This document shows, piece after piece, positions 28,243 through 42,548 of a stretch of 64,000 bases of DNA. This DNA is from Anaeromyxobacter dehalogenans 2CP-C. Lineage in GTDB: Bacteria; Myxococcota; Myxococcia; Myxococcales; Anaeromyxobacteraceae. Under the pieces are notes generated by a model. That model saw only the letters and a list, made by a program, of their open reading frames with translations. It was not told where the DNA came from and did no database searches. The first letter of the stretch is position 1. Each line of letters begins with the position of its first letter. Where the stretch lies: NCBI RefSeq assembly GCF_000013385.1, contig NC_007760.1, positions 4,500,001 to 4,564,000 of the forward strand, in the 5' to 3' direction. The position numbers and the translations under genes are program-made.

Positions 28243-29523
28243 ATGAACGCCCTCGTCCCGATCCTCGTCGCCGCGCTCGCGGTCGCCGCCGCGGTGGCGG
28301 CGCTGGTCGCGCTGGTGCCGCCGCGCGTGGCCGCGGCGGTGCGCGCGCTGCTCGCCGACCGGCTCGACGCGGTCGAGCGCGGGCAGGAGCGCCTGGAGCG
28401 GACGCTGCGCGAGGAGCTGGGGCGCGGGCGCGCCGAGGCGGCGCAGGGGACGCAGCGGCTCCGCGAGGAGGTCCGCGCCTCGCTGGGCGAGTCGCTGGGC
28501 CGGATGGGCGAGGCCACCGAGCGGCGGCTGGACGCGCTGCGCGCCACGGTGGAGCAGCGGCTGAAGGTGCTGCAGGAGGACAACGGCGCGCGCCTCGAGC
28601 AGATGCGCGCCACCGTGGACGAGAAGCTGCAGGGGACGCTGGAGAAGCGCCTGGGCGAGTCGTTCCGGCTGGTGAGCGAACGCCTCGAGGCGGTGCAGCG
28701 CGGCCTGGGCGAGATGCAGACGCTCGCGAACGGGGTGGGCGACCTGAAGCGCGTGCTCGCGAACGTGAAGGTGCGCGGCACGTTCGGCGAGGTGCAGCTC
28801 GAGGCGCTTCTCGAGCAGCTCCTCGCCCCGGAGCAGCTCGCGAAGAACGTCGCCACGCGCCCCGGCTCGGGGGAGCGGGTCGAGTTCGCGATCCGGCTCC
28901 CCGGCCACGACGGCGCGCGCACCGAGGTGCTGCTGCCCATCGACGCGAAGTTCCCCATCGAGGACTACCAGCGCCTGGTGGACGCGTCGGAGCGCGGCGA
29001 CGCCGCCCGCGTCGAGGAGGCGAGCCGGGCGCTCGAGGTGCGCATCCGCGGCTGCGCCCGCGACATCCACGACAAGTACATCGCGCCGCCCGCCACCACC
29101 GACTTCGCGCTGCTGTACCTGCCGACCGAGGGGCTCTACGCCGAGGTGGTCCGCCGGCCCGGGCTCACGGAGGCGCTGCAGCGCGACCTCAAGGTGGTGG
29201 TGGCCGGCCCGACCACGCTGGCGGCGCTGCTCAACAGCCTGCAGATGGGCTTCCGCACGCTCGCCATCCAGAAGCGCTCGAGCGAGGTGTGGCAGGTGCT
29301 CAGCGCGGTGAAGACCGAGTTCGGCAAGTTCGGGCAGGTGATCGAGAAGGTGGACAAGAAGCTCCAGGAGGCCTCCACCACGCTCGGCACGGTGGCCACC
29401 CGCAGCCGGGCCATCCAGCGGCAGCTCCGCGACGTGGAGGCGCTCCCCGCCGCCGAGGCCGCGGTGCACCTTCCCGCGCTCGACGCCGCGGTCGAGCCGG
29501 TGGAGGACGACGTGCCGGCGTAG
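28243..29523 (+). CDS. rmuC: DNA recombination protein RmuC
   Basis: 426 residues. N-terminal membrane anchor (VPILVAALAVAAAVAALVALV), a long coiled coil (~40-165) with heptad Leu/Arg repeats, then the RmuC nuclease-like domain: VKVRGTFGEVQLEALLEQLL, LPIDAKFPIEDYQRLVDA, IHDKYIAPPATTDFALLYLP and ALLNSLQMGFRTLAIQKRS. In E. coli RmuC limits inversions at short repeats. Located 44 bp after the MFS stop with GGGGGAG upstream. It is followed by a PafB/PafC-like pair, a DNA-repair context. Confidence 0.93.
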   Translation: MNALVPILVAALAVAAAVAALVALVPPRVAAAVRALLADRLDAVERGQERLERTLREELGRGRAEAAQGTQRLREEVRASLGESLGRMGEATERRLDALRATVEQRLKVLQEDNGARLEQMRATVDEKLQGTLEKRLGESFRLVSERLEAVQRGLGEMQTLANGVGDLKRVLANVKVRGTFGEVQLEALLEQLLAPEQLAKNVATRPGSGERVEFAIRLPGHDGARTEVLLPIDAKFPIEDYQRLVDASERGDAARVEEASRALEVRIRGCARDIHDKYIAPPATTDFALLYLPTEGLYAEVVRRPGLTEALQRDLKVVVAGPTTLAALLNSLQMGFRTLAIQKRSSEVWQVLSAVKTEFGKFGQVIEKVDKKLQEASTTLGTVATRSRAIQRQLRDVEALPAAEAAVHLPALDAAVEPVEDDVPA

Positions 29524-38883: not shown

Positions 38884-38955
38884 TCGCTCAGCAGCGCGGC
38901 GCGGGCGGGTCCTCGCCGTCCTTCGCGGCGTCGTTCGCGTCGTGGTCCTGCGTGC

Positions 38956-38974
38956 CGGCCCCGGACCGGGGCCG
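38956..38974. terminator. Bidirectional terminator-like palindrome
   Basis: CGGCCCCGG-A-CCGGGGCCG is a perfect palindrome with a single central base, forming a 7-bp stem with a 5-base loop. It lies between the convergent hom gene and the 29-residue peptide gene, where a two-way terminator is expected. Confidence 0.55.
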
Positions 38975-38986
38975 CTGGGGCACCGC

Positions 38987-39076
38987 TCAGGTGGGAACGC
39001 CCATGCGCGGCAGGATCACGAACTGCATCAGGAACCAGAGCCCGGCGACGGCGGCGAAGGCGAGGAGATCGTTCAT
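38987..39076 (-). CDS. 29-residue single-span membrane peptide
   Basis: Encodes LLAFAAVAGLWFLMQFVILP, a single hydrophobic span, ending RMGVPT. I recognise similar very short proteins with a Trp-containing span and a PxxGVxT end in deltaproteobacteria, often near DUF302 or sulfur-related redox genes; this is memory of a pattern, not a search. It follows the DUF302 gene by ~59 bp in the same direction, so they are probably cotranscribed. No good RBS, but coding is plausible because the hydrophobic pattern and stop are precise. Confidence 0.5.
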   Translation of the reverse strand: MNDLLAFAAVAGLWFLMQFVILPRMGVPT

Positions 39077-39135
39077 GTCGTCGGCCGTGTGAGCCGGGGG
39101 CCCGCGAAAGGGTTCGGGCCCCCCGGGTGTCCGGC

Positions 39136-39525
39136 CTAGGCGACGTGCTCGAGCACGCGCGCCAGCCGCGCGCGCACCTCGCTCGCGATCGGCGCCAGCT
39201 CCGGGCGCGCGGCGGCGATGGTCTGCATGGGATCCACCGCGGTCACCACCGCCTTGCCGTCGTCGCCCTCGTACACGATCACGTTGCAGGGGAGCATGAC
39301 CCCGAGGTCCACCACCGTCGAGAGCGCCTGGTGCGCGAGCGCCGGGTTGCAGGCGCCGAGGATCTTGTACTTGCGGAAGTCCAGGCCGAGCTTCGCCTTC
39401 AGCGTCTCCTTCACGTCGATCTGCGTGAGGATCCCGAAGCCCTCCGCCTTGAGCAGCTCCGGCAGCCTCTCCAGCGCCTGCTCGTAGGTCCAGGACGTCG
39501 GCTTCTTCATTCCGAGCTGGGACAT
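39136..39525 (-). CDS. DUF302 family protein
   Basis: 129 residues. EQALERLPELLKAEGFGILTQIDVKETL, FRKYKILGACNPALAHQAL and VMLPCNVIVYEGDDGKAVV are the defining DUF302 blocks, including the two conserved Cys (in ACNP and LPCN). Forms a small alpha/beta dimer; function is not established, though members often neighbour sulfur or thioredoxin-like genes. AAAGGAG precedes ATG 39525. Divergent from the flavoprotein gene 130 bp away and upstream of the membrane peptide, so the three form a probable unit. Confidence 0.9.
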   Translation of the reverse strand: MSQLGMKKPTSWTYEQALERLPELLKAEGFGILTQIDVKETLKAKLGLDFRKYKILGACNPALAHQALSTVVDLGVMLPCNVIVYEGDDGKAVVTAVDPMQTIAAARPELAPIASEVRARLARVLEHVA

Positions 39526-39655
39526 CGTCTCGATTCTCCTTTTCCGATGCGAGCCTCCCACCCCGGGGCCGGTTCGTCCGCGCCCCCGAAGGAATCCCGC
39601 CACCGCGGCGTGGCTCAGACGTGCGAGAGGCCGGTCGCCGGCCCGGAGGACGCCC

Positions 39656-40822
39656 ATGGGGAAGCGAGCACTGGTGCTGGGCGGCGGCTTCGCCGGCCTG
39701 GAGAGCGCGATCCGGCTGCGCGCGCGCGGGTTCGAGGTCACGCTGGTCTCGGACCGGCCGTACCTGTTCATCCACCCGACCTCGATCTGGATCCCGACCG
39801 GCGAGCTGCCGTTCGAGGAGGCCTGCCTCGATCTCGCCGGCGTCGCGGCGCGCCGCGGGTTCGAGCTGCGGGTCGGGAAGGTCGAGGAGCTCGAGGGCGC
39901 CTCCCGCCGGGCGAAGGTGGACGGGCGCCGGCTGGCGGCCGACCACCTGGTGGTCGCGCTGGGCGCCTCGCGGCTGCGGCCGCAGGGCGTCGAGCACACG
40001 GTGACGCTGGGCGGGGACCCCGCCGCCGCGACCTCGTTCCGCGTGGCGCTCGAGGCGCTGCTCGCGCGCGGCCGCGGCCGCATCGCGGTCGGCTTCGGCG
40101 GCAACCCCCGGGCGCCCTCGGCGGTGCGCGGCGGCCCGGCCTTCGAGGTGGCGTTCAACCTCGACGCGCTCCTGCGCCGCCGCGGGCTGCGCGACCGCTT
40201 CGAGCTGACGTTCTTCGCGCCCATGGCGCGCCCCGGCGAGCGCATGGGCGCGAAGGCGGTGGAGGCCGTGGGCCGGATGCTCGCGCGCCAGGGCATCGCG
40301 GCGCGCACCGGCCGGAAGATCGCCTCGTTCGACGCGGGCGGGGTGGCGCTGGAGGGCGGCGAGCGCATCGACGCCGACCTGGTCGCGTTCCTCCCCGCCG
40401 GCGACGGCCACCCGGTCGTGAAGGCCTCCGACCTGCCCCGGGACGAGGCCGGCTTCGTGCGCGTGGACGCGGGCTGCGCCGTCCCCGGCATGCCCGGCGT
40501 GTGGGCGGTGGGGGACGTCGCCGCGCTGGAAGGCCCGGCCTGGAGCGCGAAGCAGGGGCACCTGGCGCAGGCGATGGCGCGCGTCGCCGCCGACAACGCC
40601 GCGTCCTGCGAGGCGGGCGGCGCGCCCTGCGCGAGCTACCTCGCGCACCTCGCGATCGTGTGCCTGATGGACACCGGCACCGGCGGGGCGCTGGTGTACC
40701 GCGACGATCGCACCGAGCGGCTCGTGCCGCTGCCGGTCGTCGGCCACTGGATGAAGAAGGCGTGGGGCCGGTACTTCAAGGCGGAGCGGCGCGGGGTGGT
40801 GCCGCGGGTTCCGGGGATGTAG
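39656..40822 (+). CDS. NAD(P)/FAD-dependent oxidoreductase, sulfide:quinone oxidoreductase-like
   Basis: 388 residues. FAD-binding LVLGGGFAGLESAIRLRA (~7-24), VVALGASRLRP (~99-109), second dinucleotide region and GVWAVGDVAALEGPAWSAKQG (~281-301). YLFIHPTSIWIPTGE and the membrane-proximal C-terminus GHWMKKAWGRYFKAE recall the SQR/NDH-2 group, which reduces quinone at the membrane. The SQR catalytic Cys near 160 is absent (sequence GGNPRAPSAVRGG), so sulfide oxidation by the standard mechanism is doubtful. CCGGAGGA precedes the ATG. Confidence 0.85.
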   Translation: MGKRALVLGGGFAGLESAIRLRARGFEVTLVSDRPYLFIHPTSIWIPTGELPFEEACLDLAGVAARRGFELRVGKVEELEGASRRAKVDGRRLAADHLVVALGASRLRPQGVEHTVTLGGDPAAATSFRVALEALLARGRGRIAVGFGGNPRAPSAVRGGPAFEVAFNLDALLRRRGLRDRFELTFFAPMARPGERMGAKAVEAVGRMLARQGIAARTGRKIASFDAGGVALEGGERIDADLVAFLPAGDGHPVVKASDLPRDEAGFVRVDAGCAVPGMPGVWAVGDVAALEGPAWSAKQGHLAQAMARVAADNAASCEAGGAPCASYLAHLAIVCLMDTGTGGALVYRDDRTERLVPLPVVGHWMKKAWGRYFKAERRGVVPRVPGM

Positions 40823-40828
40823 GGGGGC

Positions 40829-40980
40829 TGAAGCCCGCGCGTGGTGAGTTGGCGTCCGCTGGTGGGGAGTGGGTGCCCGCTCGTGGTGAGCTTGTCGAAC
40901 CAGGGGCGGGGATGCGGTTCTGAAGCCGCTCGTGGTGAGTTGGTGTCCGCTCGTGGTGAGCTTGTCGAACCACGAGCGGG
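40829..40980 (+). repeat. Two tandem copies of a palindromic intergenic repeat
   Basis: Copies start at 40829 (CTGAAGCC..) and 40920 (TGAAGCCGCTCGTGG..). Each ends with a GCTCGTGGTGAGCTTGTCG core followed by AACCA. In the second copy CCGCTCGTGG (40947-40956) pairs with CCACGAGCGG (40970-40979) over a 13-base loop. This sequence type is dispersed in many high-GC genomes. It lies just after the flavoprotein gene and may terminate transcription. Confidence 0.7.
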
Positions 40981-41342
40981 GGGCTTTGAGGGTGCGGGGG
41001 CGGTCGGGGGCGGGGCTGCTTGGCCGGAACCGGGGCCGCGGGGATCGGCTTGCGAGAAGCCTTTGGGTGGGGCGCGGGGCGCGGGGCGGGCGCGGATCGT
41101 CACCGTTAGTGAATGGCTGTTTGCGGCCCAACGGGAACGTTCTGCGGGCTTGACGAGGGTGGAGCGGAGAGCGGCGGTCGCGAGCGGAATGGCTGCGGCG
41201 CAGGGCTCTGGAGCGTTGGCAGGGCGCGGCTGAGGCGCTGGAGGACGACGCGAGGGGTCCCGGGACCCTGGGTGCGTTCGCGCGCATGGGACGATCCTCG
41301 TGCGTTTTACGGAGGGCGAAACTCGCGTGCGATGCTTCGAGC
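40981..41342. other. Intergenic region upstream of the HNH gene
   Basis: No gene seen. Contains a 14-bp perfect palindrome GGGTCCCGGGACCC at 41255-41268, about 75 bases before the HNH start, a possible operator, and a T-rich patch GCGTTTTACGGAGG shortly before the ATG that may be part of the promoter and RBS region. Confidence 0.4.
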
Positions 41343-42548
41343 ATGGACAACGCAACCGAGTTCACGAAGCGTCTCGTCGAGCTGCTCCGGTCGGAGCGGC
41401 ACGCCATGGCGGAGTTCCTGGTCGCGCTCGCGGAGTTCGACCGGCGGGGGCTTTGGCGGCAACGCGGGCACACGTCGCTCTTCTCGTTCCTGCATCGAGA
41501 GCTGAAGCTCTCGGCCGGTTCCGCCCAGCTACGGAAGACAGCCGCCGAGCTCATCCAGCGCTATCCCGCCGTGGAGGGCGCGCTTCGCGAGGGCAAGCTG
41601 TGCCTGTCCTCCGTGTGCGAGCTGGCGAAGGTGGTGACCACCGACAACTGCTCGGAGATCCTGCCCCGGTTCTTCGGGCTGTCGAGCCGGGATGCGGCGG
41701 CGGTGGCAGTCTCGATCCGTCCCGTCGAGAATCCGCCGCGGCGGGAGATCGTAGTTCCCGTGCGGTCCGCGGCACCGGTGGTGGCATCGCGCGACGCGGC
41801 GCAAGCGGCACCCGCGCAGGTCATTTCATTTCATGCGCATGAAGTTGCGCCGGAGTCCTGCCGTTCCGAGCCGGTCCCTGCGCTCCTTCAGCCCCCCTTC
41901 GACCCCGCCCCTGCCCCGAAGTCCAGCTCCGTGGACTGGCTCGACGGCGACCAGGCACGGATGCACCTCACCGTCTCCAAGGCGTTCCTGAAGAAGCTCG
42001 AGGCGGCGCGTGACGCGCTCTCGCACTCCATGCCCGGTGCCAGCCGCGAAACCATCCTCGAGGCGGCGCTGGACGAGCTCCTCGCCGAGCGCGACCGACG
42101 GAAGGGCCTCACGGCTCGGCCGCAGATGAAGCCTCGCCCCTCCACGCGGCCGGGCCGCCACATCCCTGCCCACGTTCGCCGCGAGGTGTGGGCCCGCGAC
42201 GGCGGGCGGTGCACCTTCGTCCTCGCGTCGGGAGAGTGCTGCGGGTCCACGCACCGGCTCGAGCTCGATCACATCGTGCCGCGCGCGTGCGGCGGGGTGT
42301 CCACGGTCGACAACCTTCGCATCCGCTGCAAGGGCCACAACCTCGAGGAAGCGCGGCGGGTCTTCGGCGACGCGCTCGTGGACGCGTACGCGGGGACGGG
42401 CGGCGGCCGCGGCGCGCCGCTACTCGGCGCGGCGGAGGCTCACAGGCTCACGCGCAGCGCCACGCCGGCGTCCAGCACGGGCGCCTTGCCGAGGCGCGGG
42501 TCGGGCGGTCCGCCGAGGAACGCGGCGGCGGCGGCGGGGACCTCGTAG
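41343..42548 (+). CDS. HNH endonuclease domain protein
   Basis: 401 residues. N-terminal helical region (~1-110) resembling the DUF222-like part of HNH proteins, a Pro/Ala linker (~130-200), a helical segment (~205-260) and the HNH domain at ~285-350: HVRREVWARDGGRC, LELDHIVPRACGG (His of the metal site), TVDNLRIRCKGHN (Asn and His). Cys pairs at ~299 and ~308-309 may bind zinc. Probably a DNA nuclease; some family members are mobile or selfish. The last ~35 residues are read from the antisense of the barrel gene, with which it overlaps by 109 bp. Confidence 0.82.
   Translation: MDNATEFTKRLVELLRSERHAMAEFLVALAEFDRRGLWRQRGHTSLFSFLHRELKLSAGSAQLRKTAAELIQRYPAVEGALREGKLCLSSVCELAKVVTTDNCSEILPRFFGLSSRDAAAVAVSIRPVENPPRREIVVPVRSAAPVVASRDAAQAAPAQVISFHAHEVAPESCRSEPVPALLQPPFDPAPAPKSSSVDWLDGDQARMHLTVSKAFLKKLEAARDALSHSMPGASRETILEAALDELLAERDRRKGLTARPQMKPRPSTRPGRHIPAHVRREVWARDGGRCTFVLASGECCGSTHRLELDHIVPRACGGVSTVDNLRIRCKGHNLEEARRVFGDALVDAYAGTGGGRGAPLLGAAEAHRLTRSATPASSTGALPRRGSGGPPRNAAAAAGTS

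Follow-up and report, generated by a model that had tools for sequence, protein, structure and literature searches.

A putative Sec-only membrane selenoprotein encoded beside a DUF302 gene in Anaeromyxobacter dehalogenans

The window analysed here is a stretch of 64,000 nucleotides from the genome of Anaeromyxobacter dehalogenans 2CP-C (contig NC_007760.1, positions 4,500,001 to 4,564,000), in which a preliminary description had placed a 29-residue membrane peptide next to a DUF302 protein and a flavoprotein. Judging from sequence, we put at about 95% the probability that this peptide is the front half of a small selenoprotein, predicted to cross the membrane once. The protein appears to represent a new family of Sec-only selenoproteins and may serve as a selenol/thiol relay tethered to the membrane. 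The preliminary description missed the selenoprotein, and its recognition changes the meaning of the locus. What had been taken for the end of the peptide is an in-frame TGA; conserved coding sequence and a hairpin lie beyond it, and the frame stays open to position 38891, so that the interval first delimited (38987-40822) cut the gene (Table 1).

Table 1. Coordinates of the selenoprotein gene and neighbouring features in the window
Feature	Positions	Strand	Remarks
Small selenoprotein gene	38888..39076	-	62 codons including one in-frame TGA (U30), then terminal stop
Conserved readthrough frame of the selenoprotein gene	38891-39076	-	62 codons
Terminal stop TGA of the selenoprotein gene	38888-38890	-	
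29-residue peptide ORF as first called	38987-39076	-	N-terminal half of the selenoprotein gene
In-frame TGA at the Sec site	38987-38989	-	earlier read as stop
Predicted bacterial SECIS hairpin	38956..38974	-	8 bp stem, GTC loop
DUF302 protein	39136-39525	-	129 aa with Cys59 and Cys80; immediately upstream of the selenoprotein gene
Divergent spacer between DUF302 and flavoprotein genes	39526-39655		130 bp; presumed promoter region; basis: sequence and ORF coordinates
Flavoprotein, SQR/NDH-2 fold, FAD-type	39656-40822	+	388 aa; without two of the three SQR cysteines

Conservation across the in-frame TGA

With the 29 residues as query, a first search of 60 relatives gave 25 with a match at E<=1, of which 20 were accepted as real. 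In these homologues the sequence past the apparent stop is also alike (LPRxGVPT-TGA-xxPxRPRDGA...), and the codon at the site is TGA in all 20. Applied to 195 genomes of Myxococcota, the phylum of the window, a profile of the readthrough form gave 35 clear matches (E<=4.3e-7), rows with E>=0.003 being treated as noise; each clear match contains exactly one internal TGA, and in all 35 it stands at the Sec site. When named contigs were scanned, at least 13 loci were returned, labelled Deltaproteobacteria, Desulfobacterales, Desulfococcaceae, Proteobacteria, Planctomycetota, Ca. Eisenbacteria and Chloroflexi, with TGA in 13 of 13 among the matches listed. Two of these 13 repeat loci of the Myxococcota profile, and two (L102 and L103) come from one MAG.

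Two further phylum-wide samples were drawn around loci of the scan. The second sample, 'Desulfobacterota-type', comprises 395 genomes from the phylum of Desulfococcaceae bacterium HSG9, the genome of locus L105; the gene was matched in 165 of them (profile, E<=0.001), including seven carriers with E weaker than 5e-5 that may be chance. TGA is present in 150 of 150 rows among the matches listed (in some, the tail has another stop as well), and it occupies the site in all 40 loci inspected individually (40 of the 165 carriers, mostly the strongest matches). The third sample, 251 genomes of Chloroflexi type from the phylum of locus L109's genome, has one clear carrier; two more rows (E 1e-4 and 6e-4) look like chance. 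As a separate observation, the genome of L105 carries a tandem pair of selenoprotein genes, both with the TGA (G195:C62:29008-29148 and 29239-29379).

Across 86 loci (46 in a first set and 40 in a second, with the duplicates L097 and L098, which are the same loci as L091 and L095, left out of the counts), no change is seen at P-7, G-4 or U, and 85 loci keep T-1. A Cys stands at U+5 in 57 of the 86 (19/46 in the first set, 38/40 in the second), and four tails, those of L035, L036, L046 and L109, are without any Cys. In the window copy there is no Cys at U+5, the tail Cys being the C-terminal Cys62.

A Cys form of the protein should have scored well, since the profile carries Cys at the Sec site, and none was seen: none occurs among the clear matches of the Myxococcota and second-phylum profile searches, nor, among the matches listed, in the 13 confirmed relatives of the named-contig scan, for which patterns including RLGVPTCM were used. 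A true 29-residue peptide is rejected on the conservation of both frame and sequence past the TGA. Sequencing error or a pseudogene is likewise rejected, since the same TGA recurs across the samples of two phyla and again in named loci from others. It seems rather likely that we are dealing with widespread Sec-only membrane microproteins, present (judging from record titles and the make-up of the samples) in at least four bacterial phyla, with a short helix, Sec at the cytoplasmic face and no Cys version, the last of these being a pointer to a reaction in which sulfur cannot replace selenium.

Hairpin downstream of the TGA and Sec machinery

The hairpin predicted in the window has its loop 20 nt after the TGA and an energy of -16.0 kcal/mol, and it fits the constraints of the bSECIS model as set out in a 2026 review: a loop of 3-9 nt with G in the first two places, a stem of 4-16 bp, a spacing of 16-37 nt and MFE <= -7.5 (PMC13188914). 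In most loci the stem starts 8-17 nt past the TGA. Hairpins were evaluated by a position-specific test in which the observed sequence is compared with synonymous recodings that preserve the protein, one identical segment per set having been dropped (leaving 45 of 46 and 39 of 40). Downstream of the TGA, p<=0.05 was reached in 27/45 loci of the first set and 24/39 of the second, with combined values of 6.7e-23 and 4.3e-22 that overstate independence because the loci are related; a first run with other bounds had given 29/45 for the first set. The control on codons before the TGA, from which further identical segments were dropped in the first set (n=44) and none further in the second (n=39), reached p<=0.05 in 5/44 (combined 0.27) and 1/39 (combined 0.99). 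When a stem of at least 6 bp is required, the bSECIS model is matched by 36/45 and 20/39 loci, compared with 13% and 4% of the recodings, leaving 9/45 and 19/39 loci with no model-fitting hairpin of that size. Whole-segment folding energy gives a weaker signal, with p<=0.05 in 12/45 loci and a mean z of -1.26.

The genome of A. dehalogenans 2CP-C contains both SelB and tRNA-Sec. Across the samples tRNA-Sec was called at E<1e-10 (Myxococcota) or E<=1e-11 (second phylum), and Sec+ and Sec- genomes were tallied by hand. In the second phylum, where tRNA-Sec is found in 339 of 395 genomes, the gene is carried by 165 of the 376 genomes in which tRNA-Sec or SelB was found, and by 0 of the 19 lacking both (p 2.5e-5). 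Of its carriers there, 148 of 165 have tRNA-Sec and the remaining 17 all have SelB over the cut-off; among the 39 non-carriers without tRNA-Sec, SelB is over the cut-off in 20 and not in 19. For Myxococcota, SelB is over the cut-off in 29 of 35 carriers and in 137 of the 195 genomes overall, and 32 of the 35 carriers have SelB or a strong tRNA-Sec match. The three carriers with neither (G008, G015 and G016) are genomes that are 66, 80 and 92% complete. The association in this phylum is weak (gene in 32 of 149 Sec+ genomes versus 3 of 46 lacking both; p 0.013, hand tally), and the two markers separate carriers poorly because most genomes have both.

Neighbours of the gene and its possible function

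As the preliminary description had it, the DUF302 gene, the membrane peptide and the flavoprotein gene lie together around the divergent spacer. The neighbourhood comparison that it proposed found the peptide conserved, hence more than a chance ORF, and the neighbours varied, with the same few kinds recurring in unrelated genomes. DUF302 is the commonest neighbour in Myxococcota and also adjoins the gene in one Chloroflexi genome. It is near the gene in 17 of the 46 first-set loci, upstream on the same strand in 15 of them, the Chloroflexi locus included, and in seven of these 15 its stop overlaps the selenoprotein start (with start codons as chosen in our analysis). The window protein has a full-length PF03625 domain (E 2.8e-27, 94.8 bits against a gathering cut-off of 23), and the two conserved Cys attributed to it, Cys59 and Cys80, are invariant in all 17 DUF302 proteins near a selenoprotein gene. 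No DUF302 was detected in the 40 second-phylum regions of about 10 kb each. From the DUF302 literature, as far as the sources were accessible, we obtained a sox-cluster context and mention of a metal cluster; a function was not found there.

The flavoprotein has a two-dinucleotide-binding fold with a predicted FAD site (PF07992, E 1.8e-22). Its top PDB sequence matches are 3h8i, titled SQR, and other SQRs, and its model (mean pLDDT 79.8) is closest to SQR and then to NDH-2, the first fold match being 3hyv (TM 0.83 by query length). It had been described as SQR-like without the SQR cysteine, and the alignment to 3hyv bears this out: G120 and R158 occupy two of the three SQR cysteine positions, C336 being the third. 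These three residues and C274 are invariant in 13 of 13 aligned flavoproteins (13 of 17 sequences, with L192, L194, L198 and the partial L203 left out). A second, distant SQR-like protein (33% identity) is encoded elsewhere in the genome of the window, at G000:C1:3254902-3256035. In the intergenic region between the flavoprotein gene and the next ORF, a repeat at 40830-40985 comprises, by eye, several near-identical GCTCGTGGTGAGCTTGTCGAACCA-like copies. The ORF at 41286-42548, again read by eye, has an HNH-endonuclease-like stretch, RLELDHIVPRACGG; no Pfam family was found for this ORF at E<=0.001.

Could DUF302, the membrane protein and the flavoprotein form one dedicated redox complex acting on sulfur or quinone, as had been proposed? 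All three genes stand together in the window, G001, G004 and G005, in G006 (without DUF302) the selenoprotein gene follows closely on the end of the flavoprotein gene, the SQR fold is kept, and DUF302 genes are reported from sox clusters of sulfur oxidisers (PMC5037610), a context that fits sulfur chemistry but proves nothing. Against this, the flavoprotein is found at E<=1e-30 in only 17 of 60 relatives, all within the window's own family, and 12 of these 17 do not carry it near the selenoprotein gene. Of the 86 loci, 5 have it no more than 2 kb from the gene, and these belong to a single genus; in the 40 second-phylum loci no flavoprotein was detected nearby. G002, G007, G009 and G016 have the gene with DUF302 and no flavoprotein at E<=1e-30. 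DUF302 and flavoprotein genes adjoin each other in G000, G001, G004, G005 and G020, and in G020 (L191), where they diverge as in the window, no selenoprotein gene was recognised after DUF302. The earlier proposal of a redox complex with an easily missed membrane peptide therefore survives in part: conservation of the peptide and the regular presence of DUF302 beside it fit the idea, but the evidence does not support the three genes as a general unit. The flavoprotein is a lineage-limited neighbour; as an obligate partner it is rejected, since it was not found beside the gene in most carriers, and we regard a dedicated three-protein complex as unlikely.

Neighbours other than DUF302 and the flavoprotein were assigned with phmmer using one representative of each kind, and their adjacency counts are raw. 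Pfam confirmed the representatives for thioredoxin, sigma-70, the anti-sigma-like zinc finger, the zinc ribbon, MobB, the DsbD-like membrane protein and redoxin, and the thioredoxin-reductase-like representative as Pyr_redox_2 only; 'FmdB' and 'ECF' are labels chosen in this analysis. Six of the 86 loci have thioredoxin directly upstream (five second-phylum loci and L093; two Pfam-checked), and thioredoxin, the reductase-like gene or both are found further off in the first-set loci L036, L045, L087 and L090. Fifteen of the 86 loci (L042, L099, L104, L106, L107, L149, L150, L151, L154, L155, L161, L170, L172, L176 and L184), ten of them in the second phylum, have an FmdB-like zinc-ribbon gene no more than 500 nt away. 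Among the 40 second-phylum loci there are also a MobB-type gene upstream in five, a DsbD-like and redoxin pair on the opposite strand in three, a sigma gene downstream in three and a thioredoxin-reductase-like gene nearby in two. Many loci have none of these neighbours, and since neighbours differ between clades there is no universal partner.

Such surroundings could also be read as regulatory. The protein would then be a sensor of selenium status, its tail made when selenium is available and the bare 29-residue helix when it is not, thereby switching a membrane partner or an ECF sigma/anti-sigma pair. This would suit the finding that 8 of the 86 loci, from two phyla, have a sigma-70-family gene no more than 1.7 kb away (L035, L046, L051, L101, L105, L152, L160 and L169), six of them with a zinc-finger anti-sigma-like gene, as well as the zinc ribbons (one of each kind was Pfam-scanned), and the fact that no Cys form was found, so that selenium itself may matter. 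However, no such sigma gene is seen in 78 of 86 loci, and the Cys at U+5 together with thioredoxin and DUF302 neighbours points to redox chemistry; we therefore consider a sensor improbable. That the TGA is a real stop, with a second small ORF restarting just after it by termination-reinitiation to give two peptides, is very improbable: a Met codon does directly follow in 50 of 86 loci (19/46 and 31/40), so that TGA-ATG is common in part of the family, but all nine loci of the window's genus have Ala or Gly there instead of a start codon, every clear case keeps the frame and a TGA, never TAA or TAG, with Cys at U+5 in 57 of 86, the hairpin excess is confined to the 3' side, and the 19 second-phylum genomes without Sec machinery all lack the gene.

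For the selenoprotein itself, the predicted model has a single helix at residues 2-25 and an unstructured tail (mean pLDDT 72.8, pTM 0.41). By the positive-inside rule for membrane helices, Sec should be on the cytoplasmic side, since K/R are more numerous after the helix than before it in 84 of 84 cases (the incomplete L096 and L103 being left out of length and charge counts). Some thiol/selenol redox role, partner and substrate aside, appears very likely. More specifically, and tentatively, we picture the protein as a selenol/selenenylsulfide relay tethered to the membrane, with soluble thiol proteins as its partners in electron exchange. The helix would run N-out/C-in and hold Sec30 at the cytoplasmic face of the inner membrane, where a Cys of the tail, placed at U+5 in most second-phylum homologues and C-terminally in the window copy, could act as resolving residue by forming an Se-S bond with Sec. 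The membrane-face selenol might then pass electrons or sulfane sulfur to or from a soluble two-Cys protein: DUF302 in the window, and thioredoxin or a thioredoxin-reductase-like protein in other lineages. In one genus the SQR-like flavoprotein may perhaps be a partner too, through its remaining Cys336. Candidate substrates would be sulfane sulfur or persulfide, or a membrane peroxide.

Relation to known selenoproteins and redox proteins

Known NCBIfam or Pfam families are rejected for the selenoprotein, only weak chance matches having been found: the window protein matches 0 NCBIfam families at E<=10, and 17 diverse members match two unrelated families only at E<=1 (best E 0.093 and 0.0047). 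Table 1 of the 2026 review gives 119 known prokaryotic selenoprotein families and through it covers those of Haft and Tolstoy 2025; no name or motif in that table fits a single-helix GVxT-U protein of 44-86 residues (PMC13188914). In its available portions, a 2006 survey assigns 11 selenoproteins to A. dehalogenans, none of this kind (PMC1794560), and a 2007 stop-codon study, likewise in its available portions, names Adeh only in an alignment legend (PMC1914089). No published report of this selenoprotein was found in the literature searched, and the family is likely absent from print. Annotation would be expected to miss it, because the part before the TGA is only about 30 codons long and a search for Cys/Sec pairs has no Cys partner to find. 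A 2025 method paper states that proteins lacking Cys homologues may be missed (PMC12013277), and according to the 2026 review nearly all selenoproteins have Cys twins (PMC13188914).

If our reading is correct, roughly two in every five genomes sampled from one phylum (165/395) encode a selenoprotein that has been overlooked, and the selenoproteomes of these bacteria are undercounted, gene calling that stops at TGA being able to hide short selenoproteins. A selenoprotein without a Cys twin would also permit a direct test of the advantage of selenium over sulfur, and DUF302, a family named for its unknown function, would gain a concrete candidate redox partner. The DUF302 protein of the window is an ordinary member of PF03625 with nothing unusual in itself; the selenoprotein partner is what is new. 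With SQR the flavoprotein shares the fold, the FAD-binding domain match and the third Cys, but not the full redox-active Cys set. The selenoprotein has in common with known prokaryotic families the in-frame UGA, a SECIS-type hairpin, SelB with tRNA-Sec, and redox neighbours, and it differs from the usual bacterial selenoproteins in that no Cys counterpart was found for it, such a counterpart being a usual and not a required feature. In animals, SELENOK and SELENOS are small single-pass membrane proteins with a disordered tail that contains Sec near the C-terminus. The likeness drawn to them here is one of architecture, and the Sec of the window protein abuts the membrane helix instead.
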